Of a stretch of DNA of 32,444 nucleotides, positions 17,784-27,865 are shown piece after piece; the stretch's first letter is position 1; each line of letters starts with the position of its first letter. Source of the stretch: Candidatus Melainabacteria bacterium RIFCSPLOWO2_02_FULL_35_15 (GTDB lineage Bacteria > Cyanobacteriota > Vampirovibrionia > 2-02-FULL-35-15); the NCBI GenBank assembly GCA_001784585.1, contig MFRN01000006.1, positions 1,299 through 33,742 on the forward strand, written 5' to 3'. The position numbers and the translations under genes were made by a program. A model generated the notes under the pieces. That model made no database searches, had not been told where the DNA came from, and saw nothing but the letters and a program-made list of their open reading frames with translations.

Positions 17784-17820
17784 GAACCTAAAGGTTCTGT
17801 CCAATTTACTTGGCAGAACC
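17784..17820 (-). terminator. Terminator-like hairpin after tgt
   Basis: Reading on the minus strand, GGTTCTGCCAA (17820-17810) pairs with TTGGACAGAACC (17804-17793) with one bulged base, followed by TTTAGG. A second dyad GAACCTAAAGGTTC (17784-17797) overlaps. It begins 4 bases past the tgt stop. Confidence 0.55.
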
Positions 17821-17823
17821 GAT

Positions 17824-19020
<1,197 letters not shown>

Positions 19021-26954: not shown

Positions 26955-27276
26955 AATTTAAATTATGTAATAATATACTAATAAAACTGTCTAAAATAAA
27001 ACACTTTTGGTGTTATTTTTGCAACATAGAATTTTTTTCTATATAACATTTACAGCTTTTATACACATTTGTTTTGGAATGTGTATATAAGAATTGTATA
27101 AGAGTTAAGTGCTTGTGGCCTATAGGGGTTTATAAAGAAATAATAAAAATAGATTTTAATTAAAACCCTTAATCTATGTACAGGTAGAATCTATAATAAT
27201 TTTTTCTATTTTTCTTCTATAGGTTAAGAAAAACGATTATGATATTGAGGAGCTATTTAGCAGATAGCTGAATTTT
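26955..27276. other. Intergenic region before the tRNA cluster
   Basis: AT-rich with no plausible gene. A perfect dyad ATACACATT/AATGTGTAT (27061-27069/27078-27086) lies about 107 bases upstream of the 701-residue gene and may be an operator. TATAAT at 27192-27197 may be the -10 of the tRNA operon, with only a weak -35 (TTAATC at 27169-27174) and an 80-base leader. TAGATT/AATCTA (27150-27155/27171-27176) is a further dyad. Confidence 0.5.
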
Positions 27277-27349
27277 GCGCCCGTAGCTCAGTGGATAGAG
27301 CAACCGCCTTCTAAGCGGTTGGTCGGACGTTCGAATCGTCTCGGGCGCG
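27277..27349 (+). tRNA. tRNA-Arg (anticodon TCT)
   Basis: 73 bases. Acceptor GCGCCCG pairs with CGGGCGC; D-arm with GCTCAGTGGATAGAGC; anticodon loop CTTCTAA gives anticodon TCT, reading AGA, a frequent Arg codon in this AT-rich window; T-loop TTCGAAT. The CCA end is not encoded. First of three closely spaced tRNAs. Confidence 0.95.
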
Positions 27350-27356
27350 TTCTTCT

Positions 27357-27435
27357 GGGCGATTGGCGGAATGGCAGACGCGCATGACTTAGGATCATGT
27401 GGGTAACCGTAGAGGTTCAAGTCCTCTATCGCCCA
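27357..27435 (+). tRNA. tRNA-Leu (anticodon TAG)
   Basis: 79 bases. Acceptor GGGCGAT pairs with ATCGCCC; anticodon arm CATGA-CTTAGGA-TCATG gives TAG, reading CUN codons; an 11-base variable arm is short for a class II tRNA; T-arm AGAGG-TTCAAGT-CCTCT. CCA not encoded. Bases 27378-27424 are repeated exactly at 27645-27691. Confidence 0.93.
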
Positions 27436-27439
27436 GTAC

Positions 27440-27511
27440 GGGTCTTTAGCTCAACGGTAGAGCACACGCCTCTTAAGCGTTAGGTTGTGAGTTCGAATCT
27501 CACAAGACCCA
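27440..27511 (+). tRNA. tRNA-Lys (anticodon CTT)
   Basis: 72 bases. Acceptor GGGTCTT pairs with AAGACCC; D-arm GCTCAACGGTAGAGC; anticodon loop CTCTTAA gives CTT, reading AAG; T-arm TTGTGAGTTCGAATCTCACAA. One anticodon-stem pair (position 27-43) is mismatched. Only 4 bases separate it from tRNA-Leu. Confidence 0.9.
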
Positions 27512-27644
27512 AAATATTCTAAGCGAGGATTTTTTGAAAACAAAAATCCGAGCGTTGTGAAGCGAGAAAGCAAAAAAGCAAAATAATTTCCGGAGGCTAA
27601 AATTTTTTGGGCCGAAGGAAATTATGGAGCGCTATAGAAAAAGA
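27512..27644. repeat. Spacer with two inverted repeats between tRNA-Lys and the tRNA-Leu fragment
   Basis: GGATTTTT/AAAAATCC (27527-27534/27542-27549) and ATAATTTCC/GGAAATTAT (27583-27591/27617-27625) are perfect stems. GCGAG/AGCG motifs recur around them (27523, 27550, 27562). No gene is seen. The stretch looks like relics of small mobile repeats. Confidence 0.5.
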
Positions 27645-27702
27645 ACGCGCATGACTTAGGATCATGTGGGTAACCGTAGAGGTTCAAGTCCCTCATTGCC
27701 CA
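27645..27702 (+). pseudogene. Truncated tRNA-Leu copy
   Basis: 47 bases (27645-27691) match tRNA-Leu 27378-27424 exactly, from the end of the D-arm through the T-loop. The following CTCATTGCCCA differs from the intact gene. The acceptor 5' strand and D-arm are missing, so no working tRNA can form. A 3'-tRNA duplication like this is the usual scar of a site-specific integration, or of an unequal duplication. Confidence 0.8.
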
Positions 27703-27705
27703 AAT

Positions 27706-27807
27706 TCAATTCTCAAGCTCTTCAAATTCAGTTTCAATAAATAAGATTAAGGCTACTACTAATAAAACAGTAAGCAATATAAAAGTTAATTGGGTAATTA
27801 AAACCAT
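27706..27807 (-). CDS. Tiny predicted membrane protein, 33 residues
   Basis: A 33-codon frame encodes a single hydrophobic span (LTFILLTVLLVVALILFI) followed by an acidic tail with five Glu in nine residues (ETEFEELEN). It lies 58 bases downstream of murQ on the same strand and could be read from that operon. No strong Shine-Dalgarno (GGGAA is about 11 bases upstream). The amphipathic logic is reminiscent of small division or photosynthetic membrane peptides, but I recognise no family. Confidence 0.4.
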   Translation of the reverse strand: MVLITQLTFILLTVLLVVALILFIETEFEELEN

Positions 27808-27865
27808 ATTTTTTCTATTCCCGGCAAATTTGAAAATTATATAGAGATTGTTTTAGCCCTTAGTA

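Follow-up and report, generated by a model that had tools for sequence, protein, structure and literature searches.

REP and REPIN sequences are dispersed, non-autonomous palindromic repeats of bacterial chromosomes that are moved by RAYT transposases. In mitochondrial DNA, double-hairpin and repetitive hairpin-forming elements (DHE and RHE) are short, dispersed and intergenic, contain at least one hairpin and are regarded as potentially mobile (PMC2800124, in excerpt). Islands collected by Islander are bracketed by a whole tRNA and a displaced 3' fragment, and this finder rejects candidates that are shorter than 2 kb or have no integrase (PMC4383910, in excerpt); island-derived tRNA fragments are well known (PMC9897764, in excerpt). 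Casposons, which are Cas1 transposons, are large elements with their own genes, some families of which target tRNA genes and others 3'-distal regions of protein genes, with duplication of a target of 14-15 bp (PMC6614799, in excerpt).

We analysed a stretch of 32,444 nt (hereafter the window) from a Candidatus Melainabacteria genome of 1.94 Mb in 45 contigs (G000), in which an intact tRNA and a displaced tRNA fragment flank an insert, the arrangement by which tRNA-integrating islands are recognised. Unlike islands, the inserts of this type are about 80-270 bp long and hold no integrase, and the elements directly adjoin tRNA 5' ends as well as start codons. These elements resemble REP/REPIN in being dispersed, non-autonomous palindromic repeats, and the mitochondrial elements in having dispersed copies and two hairpins kept by compensatory changes; in contrast to the latter they are bacterial, have a fixed A-rich 3' end at gene borders and come with gene-end duplications on both sides, a feature not met in the available excerpts of PMC2800124. 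With casposons, as far as the excerpts of PMC6614799 describe them, they share sites at tRNA genes and at protein-gene 3' ends and a duplicated target, whereas the repeats here measure 18 to about 80 bp, not 14-15 bp, and the element is tiny and has no genes. Because a defining feature failed for each, we did not file the element as an island, REPIN, casposon or retrotransposon; by its structure, as read from the sequence, we file it as a hairpin-forming dispersed repeat.

The tRNA cluster and the hairpin element

ARAGORN and Rfam called three tRNA genes in the cluster, tRNA-Arg(TCT), tRNA-Leu(TAG) and tRNA-Lys(CTT), and neither called a tRNA at 27645-27702. Sequence self-comparison confirmed the exact 47-bp duplication of tRNA-Leu reported in the first-pass annotation (27378-27424 and 27645-27691, 47/47 identical), which is part of a direct repeat of 58 nt (27378-27435 and 27645-27702, 54/58 or 93% identical, spacing 267) and is the only exact repeat of at least 30 nt in the window (18 overlapping 30-mers). 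The features of the locus are:

27276..27350, + strand: tRNA-Arg(TCT), first gene of the cluster (ARAGORN, Rfam)
27357..27435, + strand: tRNA-Leu(TAG), intact, with nt 22/23 to the 3' end forming the left copy of the repeat (ARAGORN, Rfam, self-comparison)
27440..27511, + strand: tRNA-Lys(CTT) of the AAGACCC acceptor type, between the left copy and the element (ARAGORN, Rfam, relatives)
27512..27644, + strand: double-hairpin element, A-rich at its 3' end, which directly adjoins the tRNA-Leu fragment (fold, related copies, covariation)
27518..27525, + strand: left arm of the closing stem (TCTAAGCG), pairing with about 27632-27640 (single-strand DNA fold)
27527..27549, + strand: hairpin 1 (GGATTTTT...AAAAATCC) (fold, covariation)
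27583..27625, + strand: hairpin 2 (ATAATTTCC...GGAAATTAT) (self-comparison, fold, covariation)
27645..27702, + strand: tRNA-Leu 3' fragment, the right copy, with its first 47 nt as in the gene and four differences in the last 11 (self-comparison)
27703..27815, + strand: flank homologous to the DNA that follows the tRNA cluster in two congeners, G001 and G002 (sequence comparison)

The fragment begins at tRNA-Leu nt 22-23, with the first 22 nt missing, and ends at the discriminator base, which is the mature 3' end. The different acceptor strand noted earlier (ATTGCCC) was found, but the change is wider, since the four differences lie in the 3' strand of the T-stem as well as in the acceptor strand, and from its sequence the T-stem of the fragment is unable to form (AGAGG against CCCTC). 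The right end of the fragment, CCCTCATTGCCC, is one base off CCCTCATCGCCC, the tRNA-Leu end of G001 and G002, and by these comparisons the fragment is chimeric, its left 47 nt being like the resident gene and its right end like the congeners. We looked for a second tRNA-Leu gene with an ATTGCCC end, which the first-pass annotation had proposed as a check, and none of the three other tRNA-Leu genes seen in G000 (CAA, CAG and GAG) ends in this way; a search of G000 with a 74-nt query (fragment plus flank) returned no places beyond the two copies.

The 209 bp between the copies consist of a whole tRNA-Lys and hairpins only and contain no integrase gene, in agreement with the initial description of this DNA as tRNA-Lys plus two inverted repeats, which turn out to be the two hairpins of a single element with pairing ends. 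This element (133 bp) folds as two hairpins within a closing stem when treated as single-strand DNA. The fold energy is only moderately better than that of shuffled sequences (z -1.8, this strand). Covariation supports the structure more strongly, as 12 of the 25 predicted pairs have compensatory changes in an alignment of 10 copies of this type from six genomes.

Related elements are dispersed through one Candidatus Melainabacteria family: using 17 exemplars as queries, we retrieved 143 distinct copies in 123 fetched family loci, of about 80-145 bp, with two hairpins and an A-rich 3' end (in the window, also closed by pairing ends). The tRNA-Arg locus of G001 used as a query gave 31 matches in G003, mostly to the element and some to tRNA. 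The earlier conclusion that any element had been lost is not supported, as the hairpin element is still in place, has dispersed relatives and occurs in a layout that recurs. A pattern search for TATAAAAA followed by a truncated tRNA gave at least one match in 84 of 240 class-wide genomes, a control pattern also matching in many genomes, and the tRNA fragments recognised lie in this family; matches outside it, judged by eye, mostly resemble coding or chance sequence, and several (e.g. in G103, G148, G165 and G238) hold tRNA-like text, so the fragments may not be restricted to the family.

Recurrence of the layout and position of the joints

To assess recurrence, we read the surroundings of all tRNA matches in G000 and G001 (92 loci scanned). 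A second copy of the neighbouring tRNA was present in 10 loci, nine of which have 3' parts preceded by a hairpin element; these fragments start at nt 22, 23, 27, 34 or 56, to be compared with island integration sites in the anticodon loop, the T loop or the T/acceptor junction, the crossover point itself not being visible. The tenth case (G001:C3:68400-71500) is a near-complete diverged copy of tRNA-His (92%) about 1.2 kb after tRNA-His; between the two lies a gene that looks like a fusion of a phosphoribosyltransferase and a winged helix. Further cases emerged when all fetched family loci (793 kb in total, with overlaps entering more than once) were compared with themselves: those at tRNA-Phe, tRNA-Ile and protein-gene ends and one, L062, in which a perfect 25-nt repeat flanks the element in non-coding DNA (no open frame of 40 codons). 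The layout of intact gene, element and gene-end copy was found at tRNA-Thr(TGT), tRNA-Thr(CGT), tRNA-Thr(GGT), tRNA-Arg, tRNA-Met, tRNA-Lys, tRNA-Phe and tRNA-Ile, at fusA in three genera (G003, G007 and G009) and at three other protein genes. Joints coincide between different genera at tRNA-Arg (G001/G009), tRNA-Lys (G004/G008) and fusA (G003/G009), and agree within one nt at tRNA-Met (G001/G006); at one locus (L272) the repeat extends 28 nt beyond the tRNA end. This recurrence looks like a repeated process, as judged from the sequences, and not like a single old scar. The layout was not found reported in the open-access literature with a limited set of search terms.

Flanking repeats with a score of at least 18 were present at 24 of the 140 element copies that have both flanks, against 1.6 expected from re-paired flanks, counting orthologous sites once per genome, in a sample enriched for tRNA sites (many loci were fetched for lying at tRNAs) and including one copy, L300, that looks like a tandem copy of element-bearing DNA with no gene end. 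Since the other 116 of 140 copies had no repeat at score 18, duplication is a non-obligate mark of the element. At a tRNA-Met of G001 (G001:C1:224964, loci L112/L044), a reversed element lies flush at the 3' end of the tRNA, with a weak 14-nt tRNA-Met-like remnant (13/14, P about 0.02) at its far side.

The 3' end of the element adjoins tRNA ends and start codons much more frequently than controls do. Of the 31 cases with a tRNA 5' end inside 150 nt, 22 had the element 3' end no more than 12 nt away from it; in the opposite orientation, a tRNA 3' end was this close in 24 of 26 cases, with 17 at -1 to +2. The 5' end followed a tRNA 3' end at a distance of 4-12 nt in 11 of 23 cases, and in none did it face a tRNA 5' end. 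In 36 of 140 copies, an open frame of at least 60 codons also starts no more than 12 nt from the 3' end (random positions: 215 of 2,860; control with start codons leading away from the element 5' end: 3 of 141). Part of this start-codon excess may reflect selection, because GGAG in the element end could act as a putative ribosome-binding site. In loci L309-L328 (G003 and G001), one hairpin sub-type lies just before the start codons of apparent housekeeping genes, which from reading the peptides we take to be purA, metK, rpmH, rpmE and groES; this sub-type is possibly a 5' leader.

Origin of the gene-end copies

We consider it probable that a non-autonomous mobile hairpin element, which enters at gene borders and leaves duplicated gene ends, inserted at tRNA-Leu, and that the same process acted at many genes of the family. 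The integration-scar reading of the first-pass annotation is supported in part: the comparisons favour a chimeric gene end, displaced or duplicated, where an inserted element joins it, but not the loss of the element, since one is still present.

An ordinary tRNA island would leave a similar scar: a tyrosine integrase would have used the whole tRNA as attL and the fragment as attR, the body would have been deleted later, and the hairpins would be unrelated intergenic repeats. Of 16 stretches read around integrase genes of about 370-390 aa in relatives, 12 have an intact tRNA gene beside the integrase, and 3' tRNA fragments are the usual mark of islands (PMC9897764 and PMC4383910, in excerpt). 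The one integrase-type tRNA scar read, at tRNA-Tyr in G006, has no hairpin element, and its fragment begins in the anticodon loop. Integrases, beside which the first-pass annotation proposed to look for the same attachment sequence in related genomes, are present at tRNA genes there, but there is none at this locus. We nevertheless hold this explanation to be unlikely, since the same type of hairpin element recurs at many independent loci, its 3' end directly abutting the fragment, and unrelated island deletions would not each leave a hairpin element. The G006 locus (L169, G006:C17, 2118-2369) consists of a tRNA-Tyr followed by two 84-bp units, each of 35 bp plus tRNA-Tyr nt 37-85, and from its sequence resembles an integrase-type scar that has been doubled; it has no hairpins and lies beside an integrase locus. 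In G002 (L164, G002:C39), an integrase frame of about 385 codons adjoins a tRNA-Pro that is cut at nt 49, with no restored copy in the stretch read.

Differences between the two copies were tabulated for 19 pairs, leaving out L272 (decayed right copy), L062 (non-coding), L359 (a hybrid tRNA-Leu(CAA) at a contig start) and L344 (the same gene end as L033, in G001). Six pairs are identical and 13 differ. In the latter, agreement lies next to the element and differences toward the gene end: leading identity sums to 276 nt against 70 nt trailing, the leading value being reached by 0 of 20,000 permutations (P=5e-5 for the mean relative position), with the left end of each pair being the alignment start, which favours polarity. 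The polarity persists when the first 8, 12 or 16 nt are dropped (P 0.002 at 16 nt). Protein genes alone gave 1 of 20,000 permutations (61 of 20,000 with 8 nt dropped), and tRNAs alone also 1 of 20,000, part of which may be contributed by the conserved anticodon arm. The G009 tRNA-Arg pair and the L107 pair differ almost from the joint onward, against a clean polarity.

The seven protein-gene pairs show 41 differences, of which 30 are synonymous (24 of 27 if L107, an old case, is omitted); these include 16 of 16 in fusA of three genera, where the peptide is unchanged. Set against an expectation of 40% for one working and one dead copy, which is our own estimate, the excess has P=2e-5 for all pairs and P=2e-7 without L107. 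Because of this excess and the polarity, the fragments did not merely drift in place and one end is foreign, so at several loci both ends would have evolved as working genes in different genomes before meeting; the acceptor types of the tRNA-Lys and G009 tRNA-Arg pairs also point to a foreign origin of one end. Target duplication followed by plain neutral drift of the fragment is contradicted by the polarity and by 30 synonymous against 11 other differences.

The same synonymous divergence, together with the different tRNA types on the two sides (tRNA-Arg in G009, tRNA-Lys in G004 and G008), would fit homology-assisted illegitimate recombination after DNA uptake, in which a foreign gene end and its downstream hairpin enter by homology on one side and by chance on the other, the hairpins being passive. 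We regard this as quite unlikely, as the joints repeat at the same position across genera (tRNA-Arg in G001/G009, fusA in G003/G009, tRNA-Lys in G004/G008) and always at the element 3' end, unlike what chance would give.

The order of genes at the locus was compared in 10 genomes of the same family, nine of which have Arg-Leu-Lys and one (G002) Arg-Lys-Leu. In G001 the DNA homologous to the flank downstream of the fragment follows tRNA-Lys at a distance of 117 nt, and in G002 it follows tRNA-Leu at 19 nt. This congener, with its tRNA-Leu after tRNA-Lys and next to the same flank, is what speaks for a tandem duplication or an ancestral second tRNA-Leu followed by decay of the 5' part. This reading, whose tandem-duplication form the first-pass annotation also disfavoured, is very improbable: none of the 10 relatives has two tRNA-Leu(TAG) genes in the stretch read, 47 identical nt with a chimeric end are unlike neutral decay, and the same layout occurs elsewhere with the same kind of element. 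An intact second tRNA-Leu in relatives, named earlier as the observation that would point to simple decay, was absent from the stretch read in all 10, the nearest case being the intact tRNA-Leu of G002 directly before the same downstream flank. In G004 and G008, tRNA-Lys is followed by a hairpin element and then by the 3' fragment of a tRNA-Lys whose acceptor is of the other type, the AAGACCC seen in G000 and G007. Across G000, G004, G007 and G008, two acceptor-stem types of tRNA-Lys(CTT) (GGGTCTT/AAGACCC and GGGTCAC- or GGGCCAC-type) alternate among close relatives, which suggests, on the sequences, replacement of an essential tRNA.

To a function of the 3' fragment itself, such as a small RNA or processing signal under selection, we give almost no credit: fragments are well preserved, and that of tRNA-Met matches its own gene in G001 (41/41) and G006 (42/42) though the genera differ, but they occur at unrelated tRNAs and protein-gene ends, most relatives have none at the same locus, and the T-stem of the window fragment cannot form.

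Proposed insertion process and search for a mobiliser

Under insertion of a mobile hairpin element, the 3' end of the element would have been joined to tRNA-Leu at nt 22/23. With the 3' part of the gene on both sides, the gene upstream would remain intact and a 3' fragment would follow the element; the insertion, or a later exchange at the joint, would import a foreign but working gene end at several loci. We infer the movement of the element, a recombinase acting in trans and the order of the steps. Two schemes agree with most of the observations. In scheme (a), of the attachment type, the mobile DNA would carry a gene end, as in tRNA islands, and recombine near the joint, its own end restoring the gene and the resident end being displaced; this would account for the polarity, the silent differences and the same joint in different genera. 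In scheme (b), a staggered cut would duplicate a long target of variable length, and the copies would later recombine with those of other strains; this would account for the identical pairs, L062 and the L272 repeat reaching past the tRNA end. We lean slightly towards attachment-type integration, in which the element may work like the attachment site of an island. Neither scheme explains all flush joints. In the window, scheme (a) would need an extra conversion because both copies have AGAGG and the fragment ends with CCCTC. The tRNA-Lys between the left copy and the element also requires an additional step: either it travelled with the element, or an exchange with a strain that has the other gene order brought it there afterwards.

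It is conceivable, if rather doubtful, that an undescribed insertion machinery reads gene borders, possibly as a folded single-stranded tRNA gene, that it joins the A-rich end of the element to tRNA 5' ends, 3' ends, loops and start codons, and that it thereby delivers working gene ends between species of the family.

If insertion of a mobile element is the right reading, the host can survive the entry of tiny gene-less elements into essential genes (tRNAs, fusA), since the gene end remains present either side of the element, and gene ends may be shuffled from one species to another in the process. The loci would then be a miniature counterpart of genomic islands, discarded by design in finders such as Islander, and their defined joints (tRNA ends, start codons and tRNA nt 22-56) could allow the target rule of the recombinase to be derived.

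A search of the family for candidate mobilisers among reverse transcriptases, tyrosine integrases and RAYT transposases brought up none that fits. Copying by a retrotransposon or target-primed reverse transcriptase was rejected, with no RVT_1 match in any of 11 family genomes. Integron attC cassettes were set aside, the neighbours being core genes. Tyrosine integrases are present in the family and show no linkage to the element. A REPIN/RAYT system was rejected as well: the element-rich genome G003 gave no RAYT (Y1) match at E<=0.01, and the flanks of RAYT-like genes elsewhere (L332-L334, L337 and L339) carry a separate palindrome family, GTAACC...GGTTAC.

A second related element is present in the window at about 17792-17878, with 75% identity to the element beside the G009 tRNA-Arg; it ends in CATATAAAAAA and overlaps the 3' end of a minus-strand frame (17824-19017).
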